Source of the DNA: Polynucleobacter sp. HIN5
Lineage (GTDB): Bacteria > Pseudomonadota > Gammaproteobacteria > Burkholderiales > Burkholderiaceae
Reading direction: 5' to 3'
DNA: 64,000 bases
Assembly: GCF_030297555.1 (NCBI RefSeq)
Contig: NZ_AP028136.1
Coordinates: 1,364,001-1,428,000 of the forward strand
Positions 4,690 to 60,114 of the stretch are shown one piece after another. Each line of letters starts with the position of its first letter. The stretch's first letter is position 1. The notes beneath the pieces are model-generated. The model saw nothing but the letters and a program-made list of their open reading frames with translations. It made no database searches and was not told where the DNA came from. The translations under genes were made by a program, and so were the position numbers.

Positions 4690-4701
4690 TCCCACTACCC
4701 C

Positions 4702-5541: not shown

Positions 5542-5548
5542 ACCACCC

Positions 5549-6361: not shown

Positions 6362-6370
6362 CTAGAAATC

Positions 6371-6386: not shown

Positions 6387-6390
6387 TCGA

Positions 6391-6440
6391 TTATCGCGCA
6401 CAAGCGAGTTGTGTCGACCCTTCTTCGCACTCTTCACCAT
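6391..6440 (-). other. C-terminal Cys-X8-Cys tail of the giant TpsA
   Basis: The protein ends GEECEEGSTQLACAR, with cysteine codons at 6427-6429 and 6400-6402. Cysteines are scarce elsewhere in the scaffold. In Haemophilus HMW1, a TpsA protein, a C-terminal disulfide loop keeps the adhesin tethered to its transporter. A similar anchoring role is inferred here, which would make this a cell-bound fibre and not a released one. Confidence 0.6.
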
Positions 6441-9400
6441 TGGCCAGCTGATCTCTCACTTGAACAGATTCATCCATGGCAACTACCACTTCGCCTGTTG
6501 TCCCAGTATCCTCATTGAGTCTGAACAGTTTATTAACCTTTAAGGTGGTTGTTAAGGCACTCTTATTAGCGGCTGCTGCGGCAGCGGCAGCGGCACGAGC
6601 CTCTTGTACCGGGAAGCTCACTCCGGTTAATCCAATGCCAGAGCCTGTAAAGTTTGTTTCGCCATCAATGATCATGCGACCCGTGCCATTCACATTAAAT
6701 TGTCCGCCAACCTGCGATATATCAAAGTTAATCATTCCCGTTTGCGATGATTTAAAGGTGGTTGCGAGCGTTGTGGAATCAGCCACAATATTCATGCGAT
6801 CGGTACTGTAGTTTTGATCAGTAGCGGTTTGTACACCGCTGGTGACATTAATAATGCCGCCAATGTCCAAGCTGGTGCTTAAGCGATCTCTAAATTGCAA
6901 AGTCTGAATGTTAGCCGAGTAGAAGGGATTAATCGATCCTACAGCCCCATTAAAGCTGACAATTGGGTAATTTGGATCCGCATCAGTTTCTGCAAAACCA
7001 TTAAAGATCGAGGCTACTAAGAGCGAGTAAACATCTTTGGCATCGCCATCGACCTTATTATTAAATTCAACAAGAGGATCCATCGACATAAAGGTGCGTG
7101 TCTTCACCCGTGAAATCATACGGAACTGTTCAACCGGCTTCGTATTTCTTGTAAACGAGTCGTACAAGAATCCTTCACGACCATTATCACTAATCGTGAC
7201 ATCACCAAAATAAAGTTGCTGCAAGAGCGTAAGCACATCGCCCTTGATGATAATTTGACCAGCACGCACCTCCAATCGACCTAAAGGATTAATCGAACCC
7301 ACGCTATCGCCCAGCGTGACGGTTCCGGTACCCGCACTCACCGTCAAGTTACTAGACGTTACTTTCGCAGTGCCGTCTAATAATCCATTAAAAGTAATGT
7401 TGGCATTCGAGCTCGTGAGCGAAATCGTCGAACCAGTCTCCGGATCAATTACTACATTGCCGTCATAGAGTTGGGCTCCAGTGGTGCGGATATCCTTGCG
7501 AATACGGATCGAACCACTCACCCGCAATGAGGTGAGCGTTACGCCATCCGCCAGTTTGAGCTGACCAGCATCGATTACCAAGAGTCCACTACCTAAGGCA
7601 TCGGCATTACCAAGATTCAAGACAGAATTATTGATCACGGTATTACCCGAATAGGTATTCGCACCCGACAAGGTCAACTCACCGGAGCCTGTCTTAATGA
7701 GTGATCCAGTGCCGCCCAAGGGTCCTGTGAAATTGCTATCTAAATTGGTACCACCAATCGTTAAGTTGGCATTAAGTGCTACCGTTCCAGCGCCCAACAA
7801 AGCAGCGATACTGTCAGCAGTATTGACGTTATACGTTGCACCACTCGCAACTGTCACGGCCGTGCTATCCGATAAGGTACCGGTGACACTTAAGGTACCC
7901 GCATCAATGGTGGTAGTACCGGTGTAGGTGTTGTTGCCGGATAGGATTAAGGTGCCGGTGCCTGCTTTAGTGAGGGCTCCAGTACCGGCCATGATGCCGC
8001 CATACGTTAAGGTGGTGGCACTATTGGTGTCGATGGTGCCGCCCGAGCTACCAAGGGTAATACCGCGGTTGGCATTGAGCGTAAAGCTAGCGGTGGTATT
8101 TAAGGTACCGCCATTGAGAACTAGTTGACCCGTGGTCGCCGATCCAGGTGCGGTACCTAGGTTGGTATCTGCACCAACCACTAAAGTACCGGCATTAATG
8201 GTGGTGGTACCGGTGTAGGTGTTGGTGCCACTCAAGGTGAAGGTGCCGTTACCGACTTTCACGAGGTTACCCGCCCCACTCATCACACCGCTATAGGTAG
8301 TGCTATTACTATCACCGGTGGTGAGGGTGAAGGAGGTATTGAGGTTAACAGCACCAGCGCCAGCCAAGGAAGCGATGGTGTCATTGGCGGCGACGTTATA
8401 CGTGGCGCCACTGGCGACTGTCACGGCCGTGCTATCCGATAAGGTACCGGTGACACTTAAGGTACCCGCATCAATGGTGGTAGTACCGGTGTAGGTGTTG
8501 TTGCCGGATAGGATTAAGGTGCCGGTGCCTGCTTTAGTGAGGGCTCCAGTACCGGCCATGATGCCGCCATACGTTAAGGTGGTGGCACTATTGGTGTCGA
8601 TGGTGCCGCCCGAGCTACCAAGGGTAATACCGCGGTTGGCATTGAGCGTAAAGCTAGCGGTGGTATTTAAGGTACCGCCATTGAGAACTAGTTGACCCGT
8701 GGTCGCCGATCCAGGTGCGGTACCTAGGTTGGTATCTGCACCAACCACTAAAGTACCGGCATTAATGGTGGTGGTACCGGTGTAGGTGTTGGTGCCACTC
8801 AAGGTGAAGGTGCCGTTACCGACTTTCACGAGGTTACCCGCCCCACTCATCACACCGCTATAGGTAGTGCTATTACTATCACCGGTGGTGAGGGTGAAGG
8901 AGGTATTGAGGTTAACAGCACCAGCGCCAGCCAAGGAAGCGATGGTGTCATTGGCGGCGACGTTATACGTGGCGCCACTGGCGACTGTCACGGCCGTGCT
9001 ATCCGATAAGGTACCGGTGACACTTAAGGTACCCGCATCAATGGTGGTAGTACCGGTGTAGGTGTTGTTGCCACTCAAGGTGAAGGTGCCGTTACCGACT
9101 TTCACGAGGTTACCCGCCCCACTCATCACACCGCTATAGGTAGTGCTATTACTATCACCGGTGGTGAGGGTGAAGCTATTGAGGTTGACATTTCCAGCGC
9201 CAGCCAAGGAAGCGATGGTGTCATTGGCGGCGACGTTATACGTGGCGCCACTGGCGACTGTCACGGCCGTGCTATCCGATAAGGTACCGGTGACACTTAA
9301 GGTACCCGCATCAATGGTGGTAGTACCGGTGTAGGTGTTGTTGCCGGATAGGATTAAGGTGCCGGTGCCTGCTTTCACAAGATTAGTAGAGCCACTAATC

Positions 9401-12400
9401 ACACCAACAACCTCATTGGTTGCGGATGCTGAATTCACAGATAAGGTGGTGAGATTTGAGACGGCACCATTTATAAGGGCTATACCAGTTCCGCTATTAA
9501 TGGTGAGTGCAGAGCCAGTTGCGCCACCAGTAATACTAATATTTTTAATGGTGGCATTTAATCCTTCACCCCAGGCGTGAATTGCGCGGCCAATATACAA
9601 AGTTTGATTTGCGGGCGATAAGTTTCCAGCAACGCTCATGCTGGCTTTGAGAACATTATCGGTAAAGACGCTTAGTGTTCCAATACCGCTCGGGTTTGTA
9701 TATGTGACTTTTACTGTTCGATAGATACCAGCAGTTCCGCTGTTGCCATTACCAAATAAATCGATCGCACCATAGTTAGTACCCTTTAGATAGAGGCTGT
9801 CACCCCTTCCTTGCGTACGAACTAAGACACCGTCTCTGTAATCACCATACGAGAGGATCGTATTCAATCCATCACCAGACATAGCGCCAACGAGATAATC
9901 GGCTTGATACGTCCAACTTTGGCCTAAGTTAATACTATTAATAGTGTATGGATTGCTACCATTTTGAGTGGTTGTCCATGTGGTACCGCCAGTTAAATAA
10001 GTCGTGGTTGTACCATTGCTAGCACTCACCCCACCACTGATTGTGACTGCACTATTAGTGGTATTGAGATTGATATCTGTTCCAGTAAGGGTGAGATTGC
10101 CGCCATAATTCTGTGTACTGATGGTGGTGATATTGCCATCTAAGGAAGCATCACCACTGGTGGTAAGACTCAAGAGGGCTTGGGTGGCACCTACAGTGCT
10201 GCTGAAGGTAGTACTGCCAGTGCCAGTGGTGGTGGTCAGGCTATAGTTATTACCACTGTTGCTATTGACTGTACCACTAAAGGTAATCGTGCCATTTCCA
10301 GCACTGGAGTTGAGCGTGGTGTTAGCCCCCAAGGTTGTTGCACCAGTGTAGGTTTGATTACCGCTCGTGATAACCGCACCAGCTAAGGTGGAGGTGCCAT
10401 TGACGGTTAAGCTTGAGCTGCCGGCGCTATTGGTAATCGTGTTGCCAGAGGCCATCACAAGATTATTGATTGTTACTGCCGTTTGCAAATCTAAGATCGA
10501 ATTACCACTCATGGTGAGGTTGCTTGTCGCCGCACCAAGGGTGCCAGTGCTGGTAATGACTAAAGTACCGGCATTAATGGTGGTGGTACCGGTGTAGGTG
10601 TTGGTGCCACTCAAGGTGAAGGTGCCGTTACCGACTTTCACGAGGTTACCCGCCCCACTCATCACACCGCTATAGGTAGTGCTATTACTATCACCGGTGG
10701 TGAGGGTGAAGGAGGTATTGAGGTTAACAGCACCAGCGCCAGCCAAGGAAGCGATGGTGTCATTGGCGGCGACGTTATACGTGGCGCCACTGGCGACTGT
10801 CACGGCCGTGCTATCCGATAAGGTACCGGTGACACTTAAGGTACCCGCATCAATGGTGGTAGTACCGGTGTAGGTGTTGTTGCCGGATAGGATTAAGGTG
10901 CCGGTGCCTGCTTTAGTGAGGGCTCCAGTACCGGCCATGATGCCGCCATACGTTAAGGTGGTGGCACTATTGGTGTCGATGGTGCCGCCCGAGCTACCAA
11001 GGGTAATACCGCGGTTGGCATTGAGCGTAAAGCTAGCGGTGGTATTTAAGGTACCGCCATTGAGAACTAGTTGACCCGTGGTCGCCGATCCAGGTGCGGT
11101 ACCTAGGTTGGTATCTGCACCAACCACTAAAGTACCGGCATTAATGGTGGTGGTACCGGTGTAGGTGTTGGTGCCACTCAAGGTGAAGGTGCCGTTACCG
11201 ACTTTCACGAGGTTACCCGCCCCACTCATCACACCGCTATAGGTAGTGCTATTACTATCACCGGTGGTGAGGGTGAAGGAGGTATTGAGGTTAACAGCAC
11301 CAGCGCCAGCCAAGGAAGCGATGGTGTCATTGGCGGCGACGTTATACGTGGCGCCACTGGCGACTGTCACGGCCGTGCTATCCGATAAGGTACCGGTGAC
11401 ACTTAAGGTACCCGCATCAATGGTGGTAGTACCGGTGTAGGTGTTGTTGCCGCTGAAGATCACGGTTCCTAAACCACCCTTGGTGATGCTGTAAGGTCCT
11501 GAGATTACGCCACTTAAGGTGAACTGATCACCAACATTAGTAGCACTAATCGTACTATCGGCGGTTAAGGTGACATTACCAGCTAGGGAGCTAGTGACAT
11601 CTTTGAGAGTGCCACCACTTAAGGTTATTGCTTCCGCACCGACGGCTACATTCTGCAGATCGAGTGTTGCACCACTGGCAATGGTGGTACCGCCAGCGGT
11701 GCTACCTAAACCATTGTTGTGGGTCACTACGACCGTACCGGCATTAATCGTCGTTGTACCGGTGTAGGTGTTGTTGCCCGAGAGGGTCAAGGTACCGCTA
11801 CCGACCTTCACGAGGTTACCCGCCCCACTCATCACACCGCTATAGGTAGTGCTATTACTATCACCGGTGGTGAGGGTGAAGGAGGTATTGAGGTTAACAG
11901 CACCAGCGCCAGCCAAGGAAGCGATGGTGTCATTGGCGGCGACGTTATACGTGGCGCCACTGGCGACTGTCACGGCCGTGCTATCCGATAAGGTACCGGT
12001 GACACTTAAGGTACCCGCATCAATGGTGGTAGTACCGGTGTAGGTGTTGTTGCCGGAGAGGATTAAGGTGCCGGTACCGGTTTTGGCAACACCACCCGTT
12101 CCTGAAATTACACCAGCTACGCTACTGGAGGCGCTGGTAGTGGTGACCGACAGTGTTGCCAGATTCGAAACCGATCCGCTGATATTTAGTGTTGCGCTAG
12201 TCACGGATAAACTTGCACTCACATTAACGCCACTGGTTGCAGCCTGATACTGACTCAATATTGTCGCTGGCGTGAGAACTGTATTGTAGTAAGCCACATT
12301 ACTAATACCGCCATTAAAGTATTGTGGGCCATAGGTCCTATTACCCACCATCAGTGCTGCACCAGCCCCTGTGGATACCGCTCCAGATATTGGATAGTTT

Positions 12401-15400
12401 GTTTGGATCGCCGATCCATTGGCATACACATTAAGTTGCGAACCATTGCTCGTCAAGACGATCTGTGTCCATGAACCAGTGGCCGGTAAATAGTTATTGG
12501 CGTTAATCCAAGCCCAGCCTGGGCTGGAGTTTGCAATAGCCCACTCAATACGATTACCTTGGATTGCAATCTCGTATTGATTTTCTTTATTCATGATCAT
12601 GCCATTACCGCCGGCATTGTTCTTCACCCAGGCAACCATCGTGAATGAGCCTGAACCCGGATTTAATGTCGCCTGATTCGGATAAGTTAAGTAACTCGAT
12701 CCAGGCACATACATCGCAGTGGTATCAGCAAACAATCCGGCTGTTCTTCCTGGGCCACCTGCGGAACTCTCAATGAAATAAGTACCGTTGCCGCCTAAAG
12801 TTCCTAAGTTGGTTGCTGTGCTCGAATTAATTGCATCGGTGAGCGGTATGAACACTAACGGATTACTGCTTAATACCTCAGCCTCGTATGAAGCCTGGCT
12901 GGCCACCACACCACTTCCCTTAGAAATATTACCTAAAACATTTACATTAGCTGTTCCAGCGTTGACTGTGAGACTCGCACTCAAAACTAAATTGCTATTA
13001 AAGTTAATGTCGGAATTCGAGGTTTGCAAGCTAGCGTCACCCGTCACAGAAACTTCGCCCCCATAACTCTGTACTCCCGTCGTGGTCACATTACCAGCGA
13101 GCGATGTCGCACCACTGGTGGTGAGGCTTGCTAGAGCTTGGGTAGCACCTACCGTACTACTGAAGGTGGTGCTACCAGTACCGGTAGTGGTAGTGAGGCT
13201 GTAGTTGTTGCCACTATTACTGTTGACCGTACTACTAAAGGTAATCGTGCCATTGCCAGCACCACTATTGGAGATGAGGCTGGTGTTCGCCAGTAAGGTG
13301 CTTGCACCGGTATAGGTTTGATCACCACTCGTGGTGATCGTGCCGGCTAGGCTCGATGTGCCATTGACCGTGAGGCTTGATGTACCAGTGCTATTGGTGA
13401 TGGTGTTGCCACTAGCGAGCACCAGATTCGCCACCGTGAGGCTCTTTTGTAGATCCAGCGATGCCGTGCCACTCAAGGTGAGATTGTTCGTGCTGGCACC
13501 TAAGCTACCGGAACCACTCACAACCACCGTACCGGCATTGATGGTGGTGCTGCCACCGCTGTAGGTATTGGCACCGGTGAGGTTCAAAGTACCGCTACCG
13601 GCTTTGGTGAGGCTATACGCACCACCGATGGCACCCGAGAGGGTTAAGGTACCATCAGCAGTGATGGTGCTATCACTACTGAGGGTGATGGTGCCAGCAA
13701 TCGCACCCGTACCGGCGGTGGTTTGTAAGGCACCGCCACTGAGGGTAATCGGCTCAGACCCGATGTTGGCTTGGAGATCCAAGATACCGCCACTCACGGT
13801 GGTACCGGTTCCCGTACCACCCAAGGCGTTGTCATGGGTAACGACTAAAGTACCCGCGCTCACGGTGGTGAGTCCCGTATAGGTATTGGCGACCGAGAAG
13901 GTGGTGCTACCACTACCGGTTTGATTGACGGCACCTGTACCACCGATCGCGTTCGCTACCGTCATGGCATTGCTGCGATTGAAGGTCAAGGTACCGTTAT
14001 TGGTAACGGCGCCACTGCCTAAGGTACCGGTGGTACTGGCGTTGCCGATTTGGAGGGTAGCGCCACTGTTAATCGTGGTGGTACCGTAACTGTTATCTGC
14101 GGTCAAGGTCACGGTGTCGGTACCAGCCTGCACCACACTACCGCTACCACTAATCGCATTGGCTACCGTCATCGCATTGCTGCGATTGAAGGTCAAGGTA
14201 CCGTTATTGGTAACAGCGCCACTGCCTAAGGTGCCGGTGGTGCTGGCGTTACTGATTTGCAAGGTAGCGCCACTATTAATCGTGGTGGTGCCATAGCTAT
14301 TATCTGCGGTCAGAGTCACGGTATTAGTACCAGCCTGCACCACACTACCGCTACCGCTAATCGCGTTCGCTACCGTCATGGCATTGCTACGATTAAAGGT
14401 CAAGGTACCGTTATTGGTAACGGCGCCACTGCCTAAGGTGCCGGTGGTGCTGGCGTTGCCGATTTGTAATGTAGCGCCACTATTGATGGTGGTGGTACCG
14501 GTGTAGGTATTGGTTCCAGTAAATAATTCAGTGCCTGAAGTAATCACGAGAGCACCACCAGTACCGTCAATTGCGCCAGCAAATGTTCCGGCAGCATTGC
14601 TCAGGGTTAAGGTTTTTGCGCCCAAGGCAACAGTGCCTGCGCTATTGCCAGTCAGACTAATCACCGTAATGCCCGAGCCACTCGCACCACTGATATCGAA
14701 GTTTGCATTGTTATTGACCGTACTGTTGGTGATCGAGCCACTGCCACTGATGCTCAGAGTACCTGCAGTAATCGTAGTGCTACCGGTATACGTATTGGTA
14801 TTCGTGAGAGTTACAGTATTTGCGCCCACTTTATTCAAGTTGTACGCATTGCCACCATCACCAATTGCGCCACTAATCGTGAAGTCGTGGGTACCGCCCA
14901 AGGACGTATGCCCCGTGAATGTGAGGCTACCGCTTGCCACACCGGTCGTGCCGCTGGTGCTGGTGAGTGCGCCAACCGTGGCACTGGTGCCAGTACCAAT
15001 CAAGTTGAGATTATTCGCAACGGTATACCCTGCTAAATCTAAAGTGGCGTCACTAGCAATCGTAATTGCACCGGTACCAAACGCGCTGGTGCTAATCGAG
15101 CCACCACTCATCACACTGCTAACTCCAGCCTTGAGCGTTCCGCCATTAACAGTGGTACCACCGGTATAGGTATTGTTAGCCGCCAAGGTTTGTGTTCCAG
15201 CAGTAAGCACGATGCCGCCACTACCACTGACCACACCGCTGAGTGATCCACTTGCACTAGCAATAGTCAGAACCTTGCTACCGAGCGTAGTGGTACCGGA
15301 TCCCGCAATACTCGTCACAGTGGCGCCGGATGTGCTCGCACTAATGTCAAAGTTGGCGTTATTGGTGAGGCCACTCGAGCTTGCAATACTTCCCGATCCC

Positions 15401-18400
15401 GACAGCGCTAAAGTACCATCACTGATGGTGGTGGCGCCATCAAAAGTATTGATATTGGTAAGCGTGAGCGTGCCTGCTCCCGATTTTGTGAGGGTTGCGG
15501 ATGTGCCTGCCAAGATGGCGCCAATTGTGATTGGATTAGCTACGTTGTTGTTAATGGTGAAGGCGGTACCCGTTAATACGCCCGAGGTGCTTAGGATTTC
15601 ACCGGCACTAATCGTGAGGTTACCCGCGTTGAGGTTGGTTGTACCCAAATCCAATTCACCACCCGCAATCGTGACATTACCACCCGTGGGCAAGACACCG
15701 CTGCCCGAGAGAACGACTCTACCGGCGTTAATGGTGGTAGTGCCGGTATAGGTGTTCACGCCTGTGAGGGTTACGGTACCAGTACCATTGTTGACCACAT
15801 TGGTGCTGCCACTAATTGCCCCAACGATTTGGTTAGAGGTGCTCGACGAGTTCATGGTAAGTGTTGCAACATTCGCAACCGTACCGCTCATGGTGATCGC
15901 ACCAGAACCTGTTTGGATACCTAAATTGCCATATGTCGCTGAGCCACCCGTTAACACGATTGAGCTCACCCCACCAATACCCGAAGAGATATTAAATGAA
16001 CCGCTCGTAAAGGTTTCACTACGACCTACGGTAACTTGATGCTCCCACACGGTTGCTGAGCCATTCGATACCCTGATGGACTGAGCGCGATCATTCCAAA
16101 CAATTCCAGATACAGGACGATCAAAGTATGGGTTGTAGTCGTAACTGCCAGCACCAGTAAAGACATAGGTATTACCGGTTTGATTTAAACCATCATACAA
16201 AGTCACTGAAACCGTTCCAGATGAAGCAAGTGTGGCAATCACATTACCCCCCACCGTCACCGCACTATTGGTGGTGTTAAGGTTGATGTCTGCTCCAGTG
16301 AGTGTGAGATTGCCGCCGTAGTTTTGAACACCCGTGGTGGTCACATTACCAGCGAGCGATGTCGCACCACTGGTGGTGAGGCTTGCTAGAGCTTGGGTAG
16401 CACCTACCGTACTACTGAAGGTGGTGCTACCAGTACCGGTAGTGGTAGTGAGGCTGTAGTTGTTGCCACTATTACTGTTGACCGTACTACTAAAGGTAAT
16501 CGTGCCATTGCCAGCACCACTATTGGAGATGAGGCTGGTGTTCGCCAGTAAGGTGCTTGCACCGGTATAGGTTTGATCACCACTCGTGGTGATCGTGCCG
16601 GCTAGGCTCGATGTGCCATTGACCGTGAGGCTTGATGTACCAGTGCTATTGGTGATGGTGTTGCCACTAGCGAGCACCAGATTCGCCACCGTGAGGCTCT
16701 TTTGTAGATCCAGCGATGCCGTGCCACTCAAGGTGAGATTGTTCGTGCTGGCACCTAAGCTACCGGAACCACTCACAACCACCGTACCGGCATTGATGGT
16801 GGTGCTGCCACCGCTGTAGGTATTGGCACCGGTGAGGTTCAAAGTACCGCTACCGGCTTTGGTGAGGCTATACGCACCACCGATGGCACCCGAGAGGGTT
16901 AAGGTACCATCAGCAGTGATGGTGCTATCACTACTGAGGGTGATGGTGCCAGCAATCGCACCCGTACCGGCGGTGGTTTGTAAGGCACCGCCACTGAGGG
17001 TAATCGGCTCAGACCCGATGTTGGCTTGGAGATCCAAGATACCGCCACTCACGGTGGTACCGGTTCCCGTACCACCCAAGGCGTTGTCATGGGTAACGAC
17101 TAAAGTACCCGCGCTCACGGTGGTGAGTCCCGTATAGGTATTGGCGACCGAGAAGGTGGTGCTACCACTACCGGTTTGATTGACGGCACCTGTACCACCG
17201 ATCGCGTTCGCTACCGTCATGGCATTGCTGCGATTGAAGGTCAAGGTACCGTTATTGGTAACGGCGCCACTGCCTAAGGTACCGGTGGTACTGGCGTTGC
17301 CGATTTGGAGGGTAGCGCCACTGTTAATCGTGGTGGTACCGTAACTGTTATCTGCGGTCAAGGTCACGGTGTCGGTACCAGCCTGCACCACACTACCGCT
17401 ACCACTAATCGCATTGGCTACCGTCATCGCATTGCTGCGATTGAAGGTCAAGGTACCGTTATTGGTAACAGCGCCACTGCCTAAGGTGCCGGTGGTGCTG
17501 GCGTTACTGATTTGCAAGGTGCCAGCACTAATGGTTGTGGTTCCAGTGTAGGCGTTATTGGTGTCGATACGTAAAGTACCTGGGCCTGTTTTTGCGAGTG
17601 AAGTCGCACCGCCAATGCTACCTTCCATCGTACTGGTTGATGTCGCCTTATTCGTTTGGAAGGTCAGTACCTTACCCGTACCCAAGGTAATCGATGTGCC
17701 ACTGTACATATAGATCGTCGAGTGTGCGAGGGTCAAGTTGCCAAGCACGTCGGTCGCCGCAATCGCGATGTTATGAGTGACTTGCATAAAACTGTTTTCA
17801 CCACAATCGCTTAGGCAACCGTAGGTCAAGGTATTGCTCGCACGTAAATTACGCAGATCGCTCAAGTACAAACCGACTGTATCGTCGTATTTAAGTCCCA
17901 AGAGAACGTTCCAGGGTCCTACTGAAACTGTGATGTTGGGGGCGGTCACACCGCGATTAGCAAACTTCAGATGGTCGTTCGATAAATTACCATTGGGCGC
18001 AGCTGTGAAGGTAATCGTGCCGTTGGTCGAACTTGCTATATCGCCAGAGCCACTGCGAATATAGATGTATCCCGTGCCACCCGTGACGTTAATCGCTCCA
18101 CTGCTACTAGTGAGACTTGCACCGGAGGTCAAATCAACGGTTGTGGCAGCCACTACATTAATGGCATTCGAACTCTGAGTGCTAATGGCACTGTTAACGG
18201 TAATGGTGTCGCCATAGAGCGTCACTGGACCGGTAATATTGATGGCGCTCGAGAGGGTCAGGTTCGAGGTATTCGAACTCTTACCGAGGGTTACGCCCGC
18301 CAAGGTACTATCAAAGGTGATGCCACTGACGGTCAGGGTGCCACTGAAGCTGGTACCGACTGGTTCAATTGTGAGACTACCTGAACCCGAATACGTACTG

Positions 18401-21400
18401 GTGGATAAGCTTGGGGCATTGTTACGAATAATGAGTGCACCACCACTAATTGTCGTGGCTCCTGAATAGGTTTGGCTACCGGTTAAGGTGAGCGTATTGC
18501 TACCGAGTTTGCTCACAGAACCGGTGCCACTGATATTGCCTGTATACGTTTGGCTATCCGAGCGGTTCAATTGCAACACTGAATTGTTCACAATATGACC
18601 GGCCACAGAGCCAACAGTACCGCCCGCACCCAATGTGAGCGTTCCAGCACTAATGGTGGTGCTGCCGGTATAGGTTTGATCGGCGGCAAAGATTAAGTTG
18701 CCGGTACCGGTTTTCACCAAGGTGCCGCCGGAACTGGTGAGCGCAGTAGCTAAGGTCACAGTCTCACCATTGGTATCAATCGCATAGGCTTGATTGGCCG
18801 CATTACTAAAGCGTGCCGAGTGATCAGCGGTGTAGCTTGCGGTGTATTGCAAGGTACCGCCAGCAAATGAGATCGTACCGGTGCTACCTAGTGCGGTGTT
18901 TGCAGCGATGCGTACTGTGCCACTACTTAAGATGGTGTTGCCATAGGTGTTATTGCCCCCAAGCACTACGGTGCCAGTTTGACTGTTGCCGTTGATAGTG
19001 AGGGCATAAGTACCACCCGTAATATCACCTAAGTAGGTGAGCGTCTCTCCAGAAGCCGCTTGCAAGCCACTCGCAGCGGTCAACGTGAGTGCACGATTGG
19101 CATGCAAGGTGAAACTTGCATTCGCTAAAAGTGCGCCACCGTTTAAGGTAAGGCGACCGGCACTAGCACCGAGGTTGGTATCAGCGCCCACCGAGAGCAC
19201 TCCGCTATCGACTGTGATTGCACCCGAGAAAGAGCTATCGTTTGCAGCGCTCAGGGTCACAGTGGCAGAGCCGATGAGCGTCAAGTTAGCCGAACCCGTT
19301 AACGCGCCACTCATGAGAATGTTGCCAGCGCCACCGACTGAGGCGTTGGCGGCTAAGGTCACCGTGCCACTAGCCACACCCTCTGCGCTCGTTACGGAAT
19401 TGGTAAGCGCACCAATGGCACCATAACTACCCGATAAGTTGAGTGCATTACCAATCGTCTTGCCATAGAGATCAATTGCACCGCCACCGGAAACGGTAAT
19501 GAGGCCCGTTCCAAATGGACCGCTGGTGACAGGCGATCCCGTTGAGTTATCGCCCGCTTGCAAAGTACCCGCGGATACGATGGTGCCGCCCGAGTAGGTG
19601 TTGGCGTTCGTTAGCACTAAGATACCACTACCCGTTTTGGTGACGGAGCGACTACCACCCGTTTCACTAATCACGCCAGAGATTGTCAAGGTACCGCTCG
19701 CCACATCAAAGGTGGTATTCGTTGAAAGCGTTAAGGCTCCCGAGAATGCGCCCGACCCCGAGGAGGTCGCAAGCGATCCGCCATTGAGAATAATCGGCTC
19801 TGCACCAACATCCGCCTGCAGATCCAAGATGCCACCATTCACGGTAATGCCTTGGCCGCTGGAACCTAAGGCAGAAGCATTGGTTACGATGAGCGTGCCC
19901 GATGTGAGCGTCGTTAAGCCTTGATAGGAGTTCGTACCCGACAGGGTATAGGTTCCAGATCCAGCAAACTCCACCGTACCCGTTCCAGAAATCGCGCGAC
20001 TAATGGTTTGTGCGCCCGCTAAATTAAAGACGAGGTTGCCATTATTCGTAATCGCACCCGTGCCCAAGGAGTTGGTACTGCCACCATTGCCTACTTGTAA
20101 AGTACCGCCACCAATGGTGATCGTACTCGCGCCATTGGTGCCCGTTAAGATCACGGTGCCCGTTTGACCGGCGCCATTGATCGTGAGCGGATTGTTACCA
20201 GTAATCACGCCGCCGTAGGTTAAGGTCTTTGTCGCACTTGCCGCGAGTCCGCCACCAGAAGTTCCCAGCGTAATGCCACGATTGCTATCTAAGGTAAATG
20301 TTTCGCTGGCTTGTAAAGCGCCATTGTTGAGTGTGATCGCAGCCGCATTCAACGTACTAATCGTACCGAGTGCAGCATCAGCATGAATCACCACGATACC
20401 GCCATTAATGGTGGTTGCTCCGGTAAAGCTGTTGTTCGCACTCAAGGTTAAGGTACCGTCACCCGACTTAGTCAAGGTACCGCTGCCGGTGGCAATACTT
20501 GAACTAATCGTGGTGTTGCCCGCACCACCGATGGTCAGATTTTTGTCACTGCCACCCACTGCGCCTGCAATGGTGAGTGTGCCGCCAGTGTTCACACTGA
20601 GAGTCGCAGCACTACCCAAGGTGATCGCGGTATTACTATCACCCAGCGAACTGGTTCCGCCCAGTACGAGACTGCCATTGACGGTGATGCCCGAAGGTGC
20701 GACTGCTGTCAAACCATTGCTGTAAGTTTGCGAACCACCGCTTGCTCCCAATGTCAGCGCACCAGTGTTACCAAAGGTCACCGTATCCGTAATCGTGCCA
20801 GTAGCTCCTAATAACTCAAGATTATTAACGCTACTTGCCACAGTCAGAGCTTGTGCAGTGATGCCTCCTGTAAAGCTCGTTGTACCACCAATGTTCTCAA
20901 GGGCTAAGGCTCCAGTGCCCGAGAAGCTGGTACCAGTCACACTTGCGCCTGCCGCACTACTTCCAGTTGACAGGGTTAAGTTATAGGATGAGCCAGTGAC
21001 TGCACCCAAGGTAATGCCGGCTGTATCAGCGCTTGCATTGGTGTTAAGAACGGTATTTGCGCCCAAGGTAACAGCACCGAAGGTCATCGGGCTATTGGTG
21101 CTGTTAATCGTTCCCTTTAAGGTCGTGGCCGATGGACTCGTTGCAGTTATTCCACCGGCATAGGTTTGTGTGCCACCGGATGCGCCCAAGGCGAGTGTCC
21201 CGGTATTGTTAAATACCACCGCGTTGGTTACGCTTGTATCACTTGCATTTAATGCAAGGTTGTAGCTTCCCGCAGCAACGCTTAAGGATGGTGTACTTAA
21301 TACACCATTAAAGGCAACCGTTCCAGTGGTTGCGCTGATCACGACGCCACTCGTGACGGTGACATTGCCACCGAAGGTTCCGCCACCGGAATTGGTCAGA

Positions 21401-24400
21401 GTGAGAGTGCCAATATCGGTGCCAATCGCCCCGGTAATGCTTACTGCACCTGTCGTATTAATTACAACATTTGAAGGCAATCCACCCGCTGTGCCCGTAA
21501 TCGAGGCCACCGTAATCGCCCCCGAATTACCACCGCCTAAATTGAGTGTGACACCGTCACCCAAGATCACATTATTGAGCGTGATCGATGAGGTACCAAA
21601 ATCAAAGGTGCTGGTTTGATTGAGGAAGCTTGTTGTTCCGCCCATATTGAACGAGCAGTTCACGCTACTAGTACATTGTGTGGGATCGCCCGCAGTGAAG
21701 GTACCCGCAAGAATATTATTCCCCGTGGTATGTGTAATACCGCGTGAGAAGGTTAAGGTATCGCTCGTGCTATCGCCAAAGTACACATCACCGGTGGTAC
21801 TCAGAGTCACAGCACTCGTCACATCGGTCACCGAACCAAAGAACTTAATATTAGCCGTGCCGCCAGCGTTACTCATAGCGCCGGCATAGAGGTTATTGCT
21901 AAATTCAATAGTGCCGGAGCTCGTGGTCAATGCAAGCGTTGAGATGCGATCACCAGCCCCGCCGACCGAACCACCAAAGGTAATGCCGCCAGAGTTAGTG
22001 ATGGTGAGGGTACCAATATCCGTGCCAATGCTGCCACTCAAAGTAACCACATCGCTCGTATTGATCGTGATGTGCGATTTAGCACCAGCGGCGGTTCCAG
22101 AAATCGAGCTTAAGGTCATGGGTGTGGCCGCGCCAGCGCCAAGCGTCAAGGTGGCGCCATCATCCAAGGTCACCGCCCCTAAGGTAATTCGGCCCGTGGT
22201 GGGGCTTAGTGTTGTGCTTACCTCAAAGCGTACTGGCACATTGATAAACAACTCACTGGCAGTAGCTGAAATTGTCTGGGCCTTAATCGTGACCGCAGAG
22301 GCATTGGCGATCGATAGGCCACCCACAAAACTAAAGGTATCTGTCGCAAAGTCACCCAAACGAATCGTGCCCGTGTTGTAGAACGTGGCAGTTGTTGTAA
22401 TAGTTGTAGCACCAACTGCTGAGGCAATATTGTTTAGCGTAATGGCAAAAGCATTGGAACCGCTACTTGCACCAACGATCAAGGCTTGCGCAACGATGGT
22501 GCCATTGACCGTAATGGTTCCAGTCTGACTACCGTCTCCCACTGTAAGAGCACCAATTCGGGTGGAAGACCCGATCACACCAGAGAGCGTGATCACTCCA
22601 CCTTTGGATTTAAGGGTAAGCGTCTCAACCCCAGCGGTAGTTCCTTGAATAGGTCCATGGATCGTAATCGCTGCACCAGCCCCTGAGTTGGCATAGGTAT
22701 TGATCATGGTGTTCGCTGCTAAGGTCGTGGTGACCGCCGTTGCACCAATGGAAACTGCCGCACTATCGGTATTGATGGTTCCGGCCAGCGTGATAGCCGA
22801 TGGTGCAGTAGCAATTAAAGCAGCACCAAAACTGAGCGTCCCCCCACTCGCACCCAGCGTTAAGGTACCGGTGTTGCTAAAGGTGACCGCATTGGTGATC
22901 GTGCCACTCGTGCCATTGAGCGCTACGTTATACGCTTGGGCTGCGGTATTGAGTGTGGATGCAGTCAACGCACCATTAAATGCGATCGTGCCAACAGTAT
23001 TAGTAAGCGTTACCGTCGTTGCATTTACGGCACCGCTAAAGGTTGTGCCACCGGAGTGGGTAATGGTGAGCGTACCCACACCAGAGACCGATGAGCCAGT
23101 AATTTCTGCGCCCGCTACGCCACCAGTGACGAGTGTCAGGTTATTGGTGGCACCTGTAATTGCACCGATGGTGAGATCAGCGACGTTGGTAGTGGCATTG
23201 GTATTGAGCGTCGTCGCAGCACCTAAGGTAATCGCACCGAAGCTCATCGCCGCATTGCTACTACTAATAGTGCCACTAATGGTGCGTGCACTTGGTGCGG
23301 TCGCTGTTAAACCACCAGTGAAGGCTAAGGTGCCCCCACTCGCGCCGAGCGTCAACGTACCAGTGTTGCTGAAGGTCACCGCATTGGTGATCGTGCCGGT
23401 GGTAGCGTTGAGTGCGAGGTTGTACCCTGCACTATTGGTGTTCAGGGTGGTCGCGGTGAGTGCACCATTGAAGGTGATCGCACCGGTGGTGTCGGTCAGG
23501 GTCACGGTAGTGGCACCAACAGTACTACTGAAGGTGGTGCCGCCCGAGTTGGTAATGGTGAGTGTGCCGATGTTGGTACCAACGGCACCACTGACAGTGA
23601 CTGCGCCCGTAGTGTTAATGGTGAGGTTTGCACTACCACTCGATGGTCCAGTGACCGTGGTGAGGCTAATCGGCGTGGCAGCACCAGCGCCGATCGTCAG
23701 ATTGTTATTGAGATTAATCGCACCGGTGGTAATTTGACCGGTCGAAGTACCGCCAATGGTGGAGGTACCACCGATGGTCAGTGCCGTATTGCTATCACCC
23801 AAGGTAATGACGCCAGTACCGGCTGCACTCACTGTACCGTTCACAGTAATTGCACTAGGAGCCGTGGCGGTGACGCCGCCAGTAAACGCAGTGGTATCAC
23901 CGCCATTACCCAAGGTCACTGTACCGGTATTGGCAAAGGTGGTTGCACCGGCGATGCTATTACTTGAACCATTGAGTGCGATGTTGTAAGCCGCAGAGCC
24001 AGCACCGACGGTCATGCCGGTGCCAACGGTGAGGTTGTCACTGAAGGTGATGGTGTTTGTAGCGGAAGTACTAGTGATGGTAAGTGTTGCGACACTTACC
24101 GAACCACTCAACGAAGTGCCACCCGAGTTGGTAATGGTAAGCGTACCAATATCGGTGCCAATCGTGCTCGAGACGGTGACAGCACCGGTGGTATTAATCG
24201 TCAGGTTCGAACTCGTACCATCTGCAGTACCCGCAATTGAGGAGAGGCTAATCGCGTTGGCAATGCCCGTACCAATGGTGAGGGTCACACCATCAGCGAG
24301 CGTAGTGGCGCCTAGGGTGATGGTGCCGGTGGATCCCCCTCCCAATGCCGTATTGGCCAAAACACTCACTGGGGTCGTGCCCAAATTGAGCGCGCTGGTA

Positions 24401-27400
24401 CCGTAGGTAATCGAAATCGTTCCCGATAAATACTTGGTACTTGGTGCGATGGCCGTGACGCCGTAACTAAAGACTAAGGTTCCCCCACTCGCACCTAAGG
24501 TTAAGGTGCCGGTATTACTAAAGGTCACCGCATTGGTGATCGTACCGCTCGTGGCATTGAGCGCTACGTTATACGCTTGAGCAGCAGTATTGAGTGTGGT
24601 GGCAGTCAATGCACCATTGAACGCAATCGTACCAACAGTGTTGGTGAGCGTGACGGTGGTGGCACTCACCGTACTGCTAAAAGTCGTACCACCCGAGTTG
24701 GTGATGGTGAGCGTTCCCACATCAGAGACCGACGAGCCACTAATTTCTGCGCCAGCTACACCGCCAGTTACTAAGGTGAGGTTATATGTTGCACCAGTCA
24801 CTGCACCGATGGTGAGATCGGCGACGTTGGTGGTGGCATTCGTATTGAGCGTCGTCGCAGCACCTAAGGTAATGGAACCAAAGCTCATGGCCCCATTGGT
24901 GCTACTAATGGTTCCTTTGAGTGTTCTTGAACTTGGTGCGGTCGCTGTTAAACCACCGGTGAAGGCTAAGGTGCCACCACTCGCACCTAAGGTTAAGGTG
25001 CCGGTGTTACTGAAGGTCACCGCATTGGTGATCGTGCCGGTGGTAGCGTTGAGCGCCAGGTTGTACCCTGCACTATTGGTGTTCAGGGTGGTCGCGGTGA
25101 GTGCACCATTGAAGGTGATCGCACCGGTGGTGTCGGTCAAGGTGACGGTGGTGGCGCCAACAGTACTACTAAAGGTGGTGCCACCCGAGTTGGTAATGGT
25201 GAGTGTGCCGATGTTGGTACCAACGGCACCACTGACAGTGACTGCGCCCGTAGTGTTAATGGTGAGGTTTGCACTACCACTCGATGGTCCAGTGACCGTG
25301 GTGAGGCTAATCGGCGTGGCAGCACCAGCGCCGATCGTCAGATTGTTATTGAGATTAATCGCACCGGTGGTAATTTGACCGGTCGAAGTACCGCCAATGG
25401 TGGAGGTACCACCGATGGTCAGTGCCGTATTGCTATCACCCAAGGTAATGACGCCAGTACCGGCTGCACTCACTGTACCGTTCACAGTAATTGCACTAGG
25501 AGCCGTGGCGGTGACGCCGCCAGTAAACGCAGTGGTATCACCGCCATTACCCAAGGTCACTGTACCGGTATTGGCAAAGGTGGTTGCACCGGCGATGCTA
25601 TTACTTGAACCATTGAGTGCGATGTTGTAAGCCGCAGAGCCAGCACCGACGGTCATGCCGGTGCCAACGGTGAGGTTGTCACTGAAGGTGATGGTGTTTG
25701 TAGCGGAAGTACTAGTGATGGTAAGTGTTGCGACACTTACCGAACCACTCAACGAAGTGCCACCCGAGTTGGTAATGGTAAGCGTACCAATATCGGTGCC
25801 AATCGTGCTCGAGACGGTGACAGCACCGGTGGTATTAATCGTCAGGTTCGAACTCGTACCATCTGCAGTACCCGCAATTGAGGAGAGGCTAATCGCGTTG
25901 GCAATGCCCGTACCAATGGTGAGGGTCACACCATCAGCGAGCGTAGTGGCGCCTAGGGTGATGGTGCCGGTGGAGGTTCCACCCACCGTCGTGTTTGAAT
26001 TAGCAGTAATCGGTACGTCTAGGTTAATCACACTGGTGCCAGCAGCACTGACCGTGCCGCCAAGGAAAATACGACTTGGTGCCGTTGCGGTAACACCGCC
26101 AGTAAACGCAGTCGTATCACCACCATTGCCTAGGGTCACCGTACCGGTATTAGCAAGTGTGGTTGCACCGGCGATGCTATTACTTGAACCATTGAGTACA
26201 ACGTTATATGCAGCAGAGCCAGCACCGACGGTCATGCCAGTGCTTAGAGTTAGGTTGCCCGAGAAGGTGACTGCATTACCGGCCGTAGTACTCGTAATAA
26301 TGAAGGAGGCGGCACTCACTGCCCCACTAAAGGTCGTACCACCTGAATTGGTAATCGTGATCGACCCAATGTCAGTCCCGATCGTGGTGGTGATTCCAAC
26401 CGTGCTTATTGAATTAATCACGACGTACGATGCGGTACCGCCAGCAGTACCTGCAATCGAATTAATCGTAATGGTTGCGGGTCCACCATTCCCCAGGGTG
26501 ATCGTCACACCATCGGCCAGAGTAATGTTTCCAAGAACAACGGCATCCGATGGATTGATGTAGGTGGTATCAGCGCTAAGTGTCAAGCCACGGCTAGCAC
26601 CCAAGTTATAGCGATAGGTGGTATCGATACTTCCCACCACCGTGTTGCCTGTGCCGGTAAGGGTTAATTCATAGAGCGCGATCGTGCCACCAACATTTCC
26701 AAGCGTAATGGTGCCAGAACCGTTGGCAATGGTTAATGAGTAAGTACCAGCCGCTGTTCCGGTACCACCATCAATCGTGCCCGTCGTGACATTGGCATTG
26801 GTGGTGGTAATCGTTGGGCTAAAGAACAGTTGGGTGGAGCGTGATGCGCCCTTTAAGTCAATCGCGCCGGTGGTAGTCAGACTGCCACGCAACTGATTAA
26901 TACCGGTACCCAATAAGGTCAGGCTAGCAAGGCTTGTACTGTTACCCACATTCGCCAAATCAATGATACCTGCCCCGTTAGAAATGCTAAACGCAAAGGC
27001 GCCATTGGTATCACCCAATGTAATGGTTCCAGCCGAATTACTGGTTAGCGTTGTGGCCGCAACCAGGGTATTGGTTCGTGATGTACCTTTCAGATTAATC
27101 GCACCAGTTGCGGTGATTGCGCTCGGTAAGGTATTGACCCCCGTTCCCTGTAAGGTAAGGGAACTAATGGCAGTGGTACCGCCCACAACACCACCAAAAC
27201 TAATCGCTCCAGAACCAGGATTAATGGTGAGCGCTTGTGCGCCATTAATGGTGGTGGTCGAACCGCTAAAGGTAATGGTGGTATCGCTCGCCGTCAGAGT
27301 AATGGCTCCTGTAGACAGGGTAATCGGGCCGGTGTAGGTTTGCGTGCCGCCCGATGCGATGTTTTGTGCGATGGTGTAGCCAGCCGTACCACTCAGAGTT

Positions 27401-30400
27401 AAATTACCGGTAGTGGTGATACCCACGGTAGTCACGGTGCCCACGGTGTACGCTGTATTTTGGGCAAACGTTAAGACACCAGTATCGGCCGCTAAGGTAC
27501 TAATAGAATTACTTGTTCGGCTTAGAGTATGCGTTCCCGTTCCTAGTAAGCGTAACCCATTCGCAGAAATATTTTGACTCTGCGTAATTGTTCCGGCAGT
27601 ACTTAATGTCAGATTGCCGCTGGTGGTAAGACCTACGGTATTGACGGTGCCAATCGCAAAATCACCATTCTCAGTAAACGATACGGTGCCGGTATTGCCC
27701 GCTAAAGTGGTAATTGCATTACCAGTATTGGTGAGGGTGTAGGTTCCACCAGTGCCTAAGAGTTCGAGGCTAGCGGCGGTCAAGTTCGCCCCGCTATCTT
27801 GGGTAACACTGCCGCGGGTATTGAGAGTTAAGTTATTAGTAGTGCCACTAGTGCCCCCCAGGACAGAAACTGCTCCGGTAAATTGCATACCGCCATTGGA
27901 AGTCGCGCCACCATTTATCAGGGTTAAGGAATCTTTAAAGGTATAAGCACCCACTGTGATCTTGCCAGTGGCAGCAGCACTACCAATGGTGATGGCTGAG
28001 AAGCCATCTTGAATCAAGTTGAGCTCGGTTGTATCGAGATTTAGATCACCTGCTCCGCCCGCCAAACCGATGGTGGTTGATGCGGTTCTTGGAGCAATGG
28101 TAAGAGTGTTAGTTCCCGATATATTGGCGCCCACACTAATTGCATCAGCGGTGATTGAGAGTGCACTCGCTCCCATCGCAATCGTGCCACCCGACCCGGT
28201 TACTACGGAGCTGGCGGTAATGGAGGTGGTGCTCAAAATATTCGTACCACCAACGGCGCCGTTCATGCTGACTGTTCCTGAACCCGCATCTACTGTGAAG
28301 GTTTTGGCAGTGCTTGTTGCGCTATTGACGGTTGAGCTAAAAGTAATATCGGCATTACTCGCCGTGAGCGTGGTGTTGGTACCAATGGTCAGAGCACCGC
28401 TATAGGTTTGTGAACCCGAAGTCGTGATTGCATTGGTGTTAATCGTGGTCGTGCCACTGATGGAGAGATTTTTAGCCGTACCTGTGAGGGATACCGTATC
28501 CGCATCCGCATTCCCGAATACCGCATTACCAGTAATCGCTAAGGCATAAGCCCCGGAGACCGTGCCATTAAACGTGGCGGTGCTCGCTGCGATCGCTGTA
28601 TCCGCACCCAAGGTGACATTGTTGCCATAGGTTTGTACGCCTCCCGTGGTGCTAACACTTCCTCCATTGAGGACGGTGGTTCCCGATGCGCCATTTTGTA
28701 CAACGCTCGCCGCATTGACCGTGCTGGTGAACGTAGTAGTTCCGGTACTAGTTAGGGAGATATTGCCAAGTCCTTGAGCACCACCGACTGCGCCCGTAAA
28801 GGTGATGTTCGAGGAACTGGAGTTCACGGTTAGATTTCGAGTCTGTCCACTATCACTATTGACCGTGCTATTGAACGTAATATTTCCATTGGGCAATGAA
28901 ATAATGATCGTGCCCGGTGCACCATTCGTTACCGTGGTGGTTGTATCGGTGATACCGCTCACGACAACTCCAGTCGTAACACCATTACTGCCTCGATTAC
29001 CCCCTAAGCCTCGCCATTCACCAGAGGGTCTAGAACCAAATGAGGTTGCACCACCTTGTAATCCACCACCACCACCACCACTTCCACCACCGTCGTAACA
29101 GCAACTAGTAATAGTGTAGGAGGAAGTTTGTCCCGCGCCTGGGCCAATTTGACCGTTATAGGTTCCAGCACTTAAATAATTTCCGGCATCTGCTCCGGCG
29201 GTTTCACCGTCGCCTCCTGTATTATTCGCCCCAGCACCACCACCTGCACCACCGGCAAAAATATATTTCGTTCCCGTATTGCCAATTCGAACCACTGAGG
29301 CTGCACCACCACCACCACCGCCACCCGAGGAGCCAGAGGGTCCTGCACCACCGCCTGAACCGCCGCTACCAATTCCCAGCGCATTGGTTCCACCAGCACC
29401 AGCACACGAGGAACTGGAGCATGAACCACCGCTGCTGCCACCAGCACCGGGTGCAATCTGAATTACGGTTCCTGGATCAACCGTGACCGTGGCTGTGTAA
29501 GAACCAGCAACGCCCGTATTCATTCCAACATTGCCATCATTGCCACCCTTACCCCCGGCGGCACCGACTAAAGTCACGGTAAATGAACTGCCACTAATGG
29601 TGATTTCTTGCACCGAGGATGAATAGTCATAGGTCGTAGAGGTTGCGCCACTGGTGGTTAACGTTACATTGCTATTTAACTGAACAGGTCCGTTATAAGT
29701 TTGATCGCCAGTCGTTGAAATGTTGGCGTTCAAAATAATCGAGCCACTACCGGGAATACTTAACGATAGTGGTCGTGTAGTTGCGCCTATCACCCCATCA
29801 ATTTGAACCGTCCCCGATCCGGCATTAATCGTGAGAGCCTGTGCCCCATTGATGGTAGTGGTCGAGCCACTCAAGGTAATGTTCGCATTGGTCGCAGTGA
29901 GTGTGATGCTTCCAGTCGATAGCGTGATGGGGCCGGTATAAGTCTGAGTACCTACACCGGAGGTGATGTTCTTGCTAATCGTGATGCCACCGGTACTGCT
30001 CAAGCTCACATTACCAGCAGTGGTTATGCCAGTGGTATTGACAACCCCTACCGTATAGCCTGAGTTTTCGGTAAACGTTATTTCGCCGGTGTTGGCTGCT
30101 AAGGTGGTAATGGCGTTACTGGTGTTGGTCAGTGTGTAAGTTCCGCCCGTACCTAAGAGTTCGAGACCACTCGCACCAATAGCTTGGCTTTGTGTGACGG
30201 TACCAGTGCTATTTAGGGTCAGGTTACCAGTGGTGGTCAGTCCTGGGGTATTGACGGTGCCAATCGCAAAGCCCGAGTTCTCGGTAAACGATACGGTACC
30301 GGTGCTTCCGGCCAAGGTGGTAATGGCGTTACTAGTATTGGTCAGTGTGTAAGTTCCACCGGTACCTAAGAGTTCGAGACCCGCAGCACTAATGGCTTGG

Positions 30401-57447: not shown

Positions 57448-57474
57448 CAGAAAAGTTACAACATTTATCTTCAA

Positions 57475-58380: not shown

Positions 58381-60114
58381 TTAGAACTGGTAGCTGGCGG
58401 TGACCCAGCCACGGGGGTTGGTGGTGGTGCCATCGACCGCCACTTTTTGGCCGGTATAGGTATAGAGGGGGTTCTGGCCGACCTGCCAAGCCACCATGGC
58501 GCCCAGGTTCCAGCCCTCATAGTTCCATTTGGCGCCAAATCCAGCGCCTTTTAGCCAATAGGTGTTATTCGCGTTGGTGGCCCCCTGCCAATTGCCGGCT
58601 GGGGTATTTTTGTATTGCTGGACGACGCCCGCATCAAAAAAAACGGATCCCAATACGTTGTACGGTAATTGCTGGCGTAGCTCAATCGTGCCCAAGCCCC
58701 CTTGTGAGCCACCCCCTTGGGCGACCGGATAGGCGCGTACCCCATAAGGACCACCCAAATAAAATTGCTCTGCAGAGTTCAGATTGACCGATGCCACTTG
58801 CCCAGAGATGCCAACATACAAAGTAGTTCCAGTTGCGCTACCGAGTTGCTGATTCCGGTTTGCGGAAAATGTGATCTTCGTAAAGGATGTGGGCGTATTG
58901 GAGCCATAGCCTTGGCCACTGGTGGGTGAGATCGCTAAATTACCAATCACGAAACCAAGTGAGCCGGCACTAATAGCCCCACCACCAAACCCATCGTAGT
59001 GGTTACCAGAAATTCCAAAAGTAATGTTTTTGATGTCATACGCACTAATCACGGCATTGGTCAGAAAACTTTTGTTCATGTAACTTTTGATGTCATAACC
59101 TAAGGTCGTGTTCACATTGGTGCCTTGGCGTCTAATCAGTGGATAGGCTAAATTCACACCCGCGGTCCAGGCATCACCATATCCACCATTGGGATAGCCG
59201 TAATTACTGACGTTTTTATAATTTAGGTAAGTGCCCGATGCACCAAGACGCAAACCAGTGTGCGTCACTGGTAATGAATATGCACCCTGAATGTATTGCG
59301 AGCCCTCGGAATAAATGCCATTGACCGAAGCCTGATCACCAATCCCCGTGGGGTTGTTCAGGTTAAAGGCCACAATCCCTTGGTTCTGGCCAGTGCTGCG
59401 GCTACCGTAGTTGTTCGCCTCGGCCTTTCCCTGTATGAGTGGGCCATCGGCCAAGTCCATGCGCAAGGCGGTATCTCCCGGGTTTTGACCAGGCTCTAAT
59501 TTGCTCTCGACGATCACACCGGGTGTTTCATTCAGAATCAAAGAGGCTCGCTCAATCGCTTGGGTATTGAGTGGCGAACCAATTGGATTCGCATCAGTAA
59601 TATAGGCACGCACGCTATCTTTACTAAAACGCGTAGTGCCCTTAGTGGTATCAACAATCACATCACTTAACTTCGCTTCAGTAATGGCAATACGAACCAC
59701 ACCATCGGCAATGCGCTGCGGTGGCAAGGTGGCTTGCACGAGTAATCCGTTTTGTCGGTAGAAATCCACGATTACGTCACATACCTTTTGCAGCTCATCA
59801 AATGTTAATGATTTGTTGAGGTACGGTTTCAGAATGGCCTGCACTTTTTCTTCAGGAATGGTTTTGATACCTTCAAGCACAAAACGTTTTACATCGACCC
59901 GTACTTCTTGAGCCTTAGGATCCCTTGGCTTTACAGGCTCTGGTGCAGGCTGGGGAAGCTGCAATGGAGAAGGCATGGGTAACTGCCGCTCAAGGCCCTG
60001 CTGCAAGGCGCCAGCATCAACGGGGGGCTGATTGGGTTGTGCCATCACGAGGCTTGACCCCAGGAGCCCACAACCGAGAACAACAATGGAAAGAATGCGA
60101 TGGTAAATGGTCAT
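58381..60114 (-). CDS. Two-partner-secretion outer-membrane transporter (TpsB, FhaC/ShlB/HecB family)
   Basis: The 577 residues are the export pore for the giant exoprotein. A signal peptide (about 1-25) is followed by a proline-rich linker (27-70), POTRA domain 1 (about 74-150, FVLEGIKTIPEEKVQAIL) and POTRA domain 2 (about 152-228, with DVIVDTTKG and NPGDTALRMDLADGP), then a 16-strand barrel ending in a terminal phenylalanine (ASYQF). The loop-6 motif of the family appears as GVRAYP (V459). The length is usual for the family. It is first in the run of minus-strand genes leading to the giant TpsA and shares close spacing with the small protein downstream. Substrate pairing with TpsA is inferred from neighbourhood and from the TPS domain. 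Confidence 0.95.
   Translation of the reverse strand: MTIYHRILSIVVLGCGLLGSSLVMAQPNQPPVDAGALQQGLERQLPMPSPLQLPQPAPEPVKPRDPKAQEVRVDVKRFVLEGIKTIPEEKVQAILKPYLNKSLTFDELQKVCDVIVDFYRQNGLLVQATLPPQRIADGVVRIAITEAKLSDVIVDTTKGTTRFSKDSVRAYITDANPIGSPLNTQAIERASLILNETPGVIVESKLEPGQNPGDTALRMDLADGPLIQGKAEANNYGSRSTGQNQGIVAFNLNNPTGIGDQASVNGIYSEGSQYIQGAYSLPVTHTGLRLGASGTYLNYKNVSNYGYPNGGYGDAWTAGVNLAYPLIRRQGTNVNTTLGYDIKSYMNKSFLTNAVISAYDIKNITFGISGNHYDGFGGGAISAGSLGFVIGNLAISPTSGQGYGSNTPTSFTKITFSANRNQQLGSATGTTLYVGISGQVASVNLNSAEQFYLGGPYGVRAYPVAQGGGSQGGLGTIELRQQLPYNVLGSVFFDAGVVQQYKNTPAGNWQGATNANNTYWLKGAGFGAKWNYEGWNLGAMVAWQVGQNPLYTYTGQKVAVDGTTTNPRGWVTASYQF

Follow-up and report, generated by a model that had tools for sequence, protein, structure and literature searches.

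Different Modules at an Orthologous Position in the Scaffold of a Giant Two-Partner-Secretion Fibre of Polynucleobacter

Introduction

Do the binding-type modules of a giant fibre stay in place, or are whole modules exchanged within its scaffold? This question is raised by a 64-kb stretch (the window) of the genome of Polynucleobacter sp. HIN5 (1,880,609 bases, one contig), in which a single open frame of 17,027 codons (57474..6391) encodes a fibre with PATR repeats. The frame is a TpsA of the two-partner-secretion (TPS) type, by its N-terminal TPS secretion domain (residues 84-335, 56470..57225; PF05860, E = 1.5e-35; TIGR01901, E = 7.1e-24) and by the neighbouring gene, shortly before it, of its partner TpsB, an outer-membrane transporter (58381..60114; ShlB, 1.1e-18; POTRA_2, 3.9e-14). 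Positions are those of the window, and the fibre gene, TpsB, and all domains, modules, and scaffold flanks given below lie on the minus strand.

An earlier reading of the DNA letters (the original prediction) held that three modules of two fold types, one crystallin-like (slot 1) and two LamG-like (slots 2 and 3), share similar flanks at equivalent places of a repeated scaffold, as if whole binding domains had been exchanged into a common acceptor position. The coordinates and motifs that it quoted were correct on re-inspection. The modules and their flanks were followed here through relatives of HIN5, which are coded G0xx or G1xx (G131 is P. nymphae, G060 is P. brandtiae, and G149 is Polynucleobacter sp. 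MWH-Jannik1A5). Unrelated modules occur in orthologous scaffold at a further position, slot X, the same families occur in different slots, the histories of flanks and modules conflict, and a tract of ~15 kb is common to two species. It is likely that recombination in the scaffold DNA of this fibre exchanges modules, along with the scaffold that flanks them, from species to species and from slot to slot.

Different Modules at One Orthologous Position

Slot X lies outside the coordinates of the original prediction and carries, in HIN5, a Laminin_G_3 module (32689..33189; PF13385, 1.4e-12). The scaffold downstream of it (31867..32529) was used as an anchor, the search handle for the slot in relatives, and was present in 8 of 186 genomes of the genus. 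Module swaps are seen directly at this slot. Five module types are found among the eight species, namely LamG in HIN5, a C-type lectin (PF00059, 4.1e-11) in G161, a module of the slot-3 type in G038, a type labelled GAL in G120, G149, and G060, which stands upstream of the LamG place by another ~140 scaffold residues, and a type labelled WTGG in G131 and G107, which is placed in a neighbouring turn.

The end of each upstream flank was placed on a profile of the uninterrupted scaffold repeat, which has 78 positions. In HIN5, G161, and G038, three different modules follow upstream flanks that end almost alike (positions 66, 65, and 64). Similar downstream flanks, too, border different modules: those of G038, G149, and G107 are 79-89% identical and those of HIN5, G161, and G131 are 67-82% identical, in each case with three module types. 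For modules of the same type, G060 and G149 agree at 74% in the middle and at 52% in the downstream flanks, and G131 and G107 at 61% and 53%. On the tree of downstream flanks GAL needs three changes and WTGG two, and at least two of each are forced by well-supported branches. Such a conflict of flank and module histories is what breakpoints of recombination close to the module should produce. When all five labels are placed on the same tree, five changes are needed, which is not fewer than with shuffled labels; the tree of the upstream flanks, which are short, groups the three GAL species with a support of 90/93.

The variety at slot X could also have been left by differential loss, if the fibre of an ancestor had many modules in adjacent turns, of which its lineages lost different ones. 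GAL and WTGG indeed occupy turns beside the LamG turn, and G120 simply lacks two other modules of HIN5 described below, Cryst1 and Gly1. Loss does not fit the three modules of HIN5, G161, and G038, whose upstream flanks end at the same place, or the repeated changes of GAL and WTGG on the downstream-flank tree, and it is unable to explain why G038 has a member of the slot-3 family at slot X. We consider it unlikely.

Relatives of the anchor scaffold were also seen in metagenome bins labelled Chromatiaceae, Sulfuritalea, Chthoniobacter, Spirochaetota, Kuenenia, and Natronospirales. In G107 the TpsB match is fragmented with two stops and the fibre region consists of several separate frames, so that this copy may be decaying.

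The Same Families in Different Slots

The slot-3 family was found in 3 of the 186 genomes (HIN5; G161, 100% identity; G038, 58%), the member in G038 being the one at slot X. The slot-1 family is likewise present in three (HIN5; G161, 100%; G149, 41%, E = 7.5e-4), and its member in G149 stands at another position, slot Y. Outside the near-identical tract common with G161, the modules of slots 3 and 1 have their closest relatives at other positions in other species. The slot-2 module, also present in three genomes (HIN5; G161, 100%; G109, 88%), is at the same place in G109. In HIN5, slot Y holds a glycine-rich module, Gly2 (28921..29616), which has no Pfam match and has relatives in G161 and G038; in G131 and G149 crystallin-like modules stand at slot Y one repeat earlier than Gly2. 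Cryst1 is a crystallin-like module of HIN5 (36184..36483), which G120 lacks at the orthologous place. Its family was found in 4 of the 186 genomes: besides HIN5, these are G131, with 72% identity at slot Y, G090, with 55% and another scaffold around the module, and G060, with a 40% fragment that contains stops.

The identity with G161 extends over a tract from ~5500 to 20000, which holds slots 1 to 3 and the end of the gene. Its 29 bins of 500 bp are 99.4-100% identical, and over ~15 kb it is ~99.9% identical to this other species. Outside the tract the identity is 86-96% in bins 1000-5500, 86-99% in bins 20000-26000, and 85-96% in other blocks of the gene. To judge from these identities, the tract is a recent exchange between species, and this recent sharing of the entire tract is why G161 has the same three modules. 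A CobN/magnesium chelatase (BchH-like) gene (871-4689), part of which adjoins the tract, is located close to where the fibre gene ends.

Of 121 genomes sampled, 49 had a TpsB match, and relatives of the TpsA were taken from a chosen subset of these; G116, G026, and G076 were left out, having no frame of more than 3,000 residues in coding orientation within 60 kb after TpsB. G109 has kept the slot-2 module and lacks that of slot 3 (its contig starts just upstream of slot 2, so that slot 1 is off the contig). G120 was compared with HIN5 by DNA blocks, the protein comparison having aligned through the modules and been uninformative; 13 collinear blocks at 72-82% DNA identity were found, and the region of slots 1 and 2 is largely missing.

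Modules and Flanks of Slots 1 to 3

Pfam scans of pieces of 3,667-5,000 residues returned PATR and one family below its cut-off and overlooked LamG, so the modules, with borders set by eye for slots 1 to 3, were scanned singly. The slot-2 module (12235..12897) is a clear Laminin_G_3 domain (PF13385, E = 1.1e-21), with 78.0 bits against a curated cut-off of 27.6. The crystallin-like module of slot 1 (15949..16221) is weak in Pfam, where Crystall is under the cut-off (E = 0.041, 14.4 bits against a curated 25) and two other weak families score slightly better; a five-row profile of slot 1, Cryst1 (36.2-36.5 kb), and relatives matches solved beta/gamma-crystallins with a best E of 2e-4. The module of slot 3 (9520..10008), probably LamG-like, had no match of its own in the Pfam scan and did not reach the Laminin_G_3 cut-off. 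Its G038 homologue matches Laminin_G_3 below the same cut-off (PF13385, E = 0.0016, 19.0 bits), which lends a LamG fold of slot 3 weak support. A protein search for slot 3 within a 3,402-residue piece gave 6,387 candidates, none of them at E <= 0.001, and a scan of genome contigs with a two-row slot-3 alignment gave 33 pattern-matching stretches and zero relatives. The AlphaFold models were poor, with a mean predicted local distance difference test score of 37 for slot 3 alone and 56 for slot 1 with one relative, and Foldseek returned nothing at E <= 0.001.

The similarity of the flanks was ranked against 4,000 random scaffold pairs. The downstream flanks are in the top 0.85% (slots 1 and 2), 0.55% (slots 1 and 3), and 0.3% (slots 2 and 3), and the upstream flanks in the top 0.2% for slots 1 and 3 and the top 1.8% for slots 1 and 2. 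The common flanks of the original prediction thus hold in five of six comparisons, which are above 98% of the random pairs, but the sixth, the upstream comparison of slots 2 and 3, is only in the top 5.6%. When the upstream flanks were scanned along the scaffold, slots 1 and 3 were each other's best non-self place, and slot 1 was the best place for slot 2 by a small margin (134 vs 129 for an unrelated scaffold). At the DNA level, the scaffold upstream of slot 1 (16312..17545) and that upstream of slot 2 (13057..14293) are near-copies of each other, with 98.6% identity over 1,237 columns, and the two slots hold unrelated modules despite this copy. The copy stops ~90 bp before the module in slot 1 and ~160 bp before it in slot 2. 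The flank of slot 1 is a mosaic, in which the slot-2-like copy is followed by a switch to a slot-3-like stretch.

Gene conversion or unequal crossing-over could have equalised these flanks while the modules stayed put, and the 98.6% copy, the mosaic flank of slot 1, and the repetition within the gene, where 23% of the 20-mers occur repeatedly, are in favour of such homogenisation. It would account for slots 1 to 3, but not for the unrelated modules at the orthologous slot X, and it leaves one module family in two positions unexplained. As the only process at work we regard it as quite improbable. An error of assembly in so repetitive a gene might likewise be suspected from repeats of 1.2-1.35 kb at 98.6-100% identity and from the draft contigs that end inside the gene in G109, G131, G060, and G149. 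The intact 17,027-codon frame is on one contig, and G161, likewise a single contig, has the final 19.6 kb of the gene gap-free, which makes this explanation very unlikely.

A dedicated system that moves modules, whether a diversity-generating retroelement, a site-specific recombinase, or silent cassettes, is another alternative, and one reverse transcriptase (255 residues; C1:1164819-1165331) is present in the HIN5 genome. It is ~200 kb from the fibre gene, and its PADLOC matches are led by RT_IX and RT_I-B, which we take to be models of retron-type reverse transcriptases. The sole reverse transcriptase being distant and matching other models best, a diversity-generating retroelement was judged unlikely. 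In the HIN5 genome each module of slots 1 to 3 matches once at E <= 0.001, so that no silent donor copy was found at that sensitivity, and no recombinase search was made. The chance that a dedicated system is responsible seems to us very small.

Insertion Positions in the Scaffold Repeat

The three slots had been described as equivalent places of the scaffold. On the 78-position profile this is true of slots 1 and 3, whose upstream flanks both end at 39, but slot 2 is one strand-turn later, at 66, the position of slot X in HIN5. Other flanks that end near 39 are those of Cryst1 (41) and Gly2 (37), as well as those of crystallin-like modules in G090 (40) and G149 (43). The three GAL junctions are at 75-76, and a C-type-lectin-like module of HIN5 (49120..49512), which has no Pfam match and matches solved C-type lectins weakly (best E = 4.2e-4), is at 73. 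Four of the 18 upstream flanks had no profile match at 0.01 or better and were excluded. In a simple simulation, the junctions cluster by repeat position with P = 0.013 for 12 junctions (the three GAL counted once) and P = 0.02 for 9, once slots 1 and 3 had been pooled and likewise the three junctions at slot X. A recurring insertion phase is suggested by these values, though not strongly.

Other Modules and the Surroundings of the Fibre

Gly1 (40495..41130), absent from G120 as mentioned above, is a glycine-rich module (Gly_rich_2, PF21722, 2.3e-14). A glycine-rich module close to it was noted in G060 (C7, frame residues 5861-6071); its flanks look orthologous and have diverged more than it has. 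LamG1 (46081..46737; PF13385, 4.1e-10 in the genome search) occupies a stable slot, with relatives in G161, in G038, and weakly in G036. Another TpsA of the genus, in G036, has PA14/GLEYA and Laminin_G_3 modules. Laminin_G_3 was found at 12 places in 8 of the 186 genomes, 10 of them in frames of more than 1,200 codons and 2 in a frame of 545 codons, and Lectin_C in 7 genomes, HIN5 not among them. In seven of nine modules the third-position GC is below that of both flanks, which is in keeping with separate origins of the modules without being proof of them. The module families suggest that the modules bind glycans or surfaces, a predicted function.

The PATR repeats form 11, 9, and 23 stretches in three overlapping pieces of the protein, and the Pfam scan gave none in the fourth piece. 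The repeated strand scaffold is probably a beta-helix. Within 39464-34865 a scaffold stretch of 1.18-1.35 kb is present in three copies (DNA identity 99.9-100%), with Cryst1 between copies 2 and 3. Between TpsB and TpsA lies a frame of 183 residues (57820-58371), for which Pfam, NCBIfam, and PADLOC gave no convincing match.

How Modules May Be Exchanged

The reading that we prefer is exchange by recombination in the scaffold. Binding-type modules would sit in a few recurring turn positions of the ~78-residue scaffold repeat, and the scaffold DNA, being repeated within the gene and similar across species, would provide the homology. Each replacement, whether across species or across slots, would then take in the module and about 100-200 scaffold residues to either side of it, and at times a tract many kb long. 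Homologous recombination is in our interpretation the process. The competence family PF03772 is present in HIN5 and likewise in 10 of 14 control genomes, and so gives little support.

Whole-module exchange into a common acceptor, as originally proposed, is real in this gene, where slot X gives it directly; for slots 1 to 3 themselves we infer past exchange. That new specificities would arise with the fibre unchanged is not quite accurate, since scaffold flanks change along with the module.

Several observations weigh against recombination of this kind. At slots 1 to 3 no alternative module was seen in G161, G109, or G120, stable slots exist (that of LamG1, with relatives in G161, in G038, and weakly in G036, and that of Gly2, with relatives in G161 and G038), and the match that relates slot 1 to G149 is weak. 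Around slot X identity falls gradually over 100-200 residues per side, with no sharp breakpoints, and the upstream-flank tree is without any branch of high support. GAL and WTGG are in neighbouring turns and not in the identical one, and the insertion point at slot X is fixed by the upstream side alone, as the downstream flanks there fit the repeat profile poorly. The clustering by phase is itself modest, and the module borders were set by eye.

A broader picture can be offered tentatively. The fibre might work as a plug-in rack, in which a few fixed turn positions of the ~78-residue repeat take up six or more kinds of compact module, drawn from a genus-wide pool of rare modules that recombination in scaffold DNA moves between species and slots; receptor specificity would then evolve by replacement of domains, not by mutation.

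For adhesins, the usual ground for assuming that domains were exchanged is a mosaic architecture. At slot X, five types in eight species come with flanks that permit the replacement to be traced, and the set is a natural series for how giant fibres change what they bind. The positions of the slots also point to sites of the scaffold that tolerate foreign domains.

Comparison with Known Systems

The components of this picture are already known: TPS fibres, cassette exchange in CdiA, budding domains in repeats-in-toxin (RTX) adhesins, and a replacement island with a giant gene. In the literature listings and the passages of the cited papers that were consulted, we met no description of a TPS fibre in which several families of module alternate at a single orthologous position.

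In the same genus, P. asymbioticus is reported to have a ratio of recombination to mutation (r/m) of 7.4, with hotspots of recombination on either border of a region that contains a giant gene (PMC5644125). The gene of up to 42 kb, the replacement island, and the hotspots at its borders resemble the present case; that study treats the island as a whole, and its giant gene may be another one than that of the HIN5 fibre. RTX adhesins have ligand-binding domains, such as sugar-binding ones and PA14, that bud from split domains, so that they stand out from a host domain within a giant adhesin (PMC12077191, PMC10865825). They differ from the HIN5 fibre in type I secretion and an Ig-like scaffold, and alternation at an orthologous slot was not met in these two sources. 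In CdiA, toxin ends are exchanged (PMC5422565), so that modules of a TpsA are replaced by homologous recombination, as the HIN5 fibre suggests for its own; CdiA has one C-terminal toxin end and orphan cassettes nearby, whereas the HIN5 modules are internal and no silent copy of those in slots 1 to 3 was found. Similar in build are the TPS adhesins of the filamentous-haemagglutinin type, among which fibres with adhesive loops have been described (PMC5422565) and which have in common with the HIN5 fibre the TPS domain and the TpsB partner. Compared with these, the HIN5 fibre is far longer, and it carries lectin-like modules of several families that differ between species at one slot.

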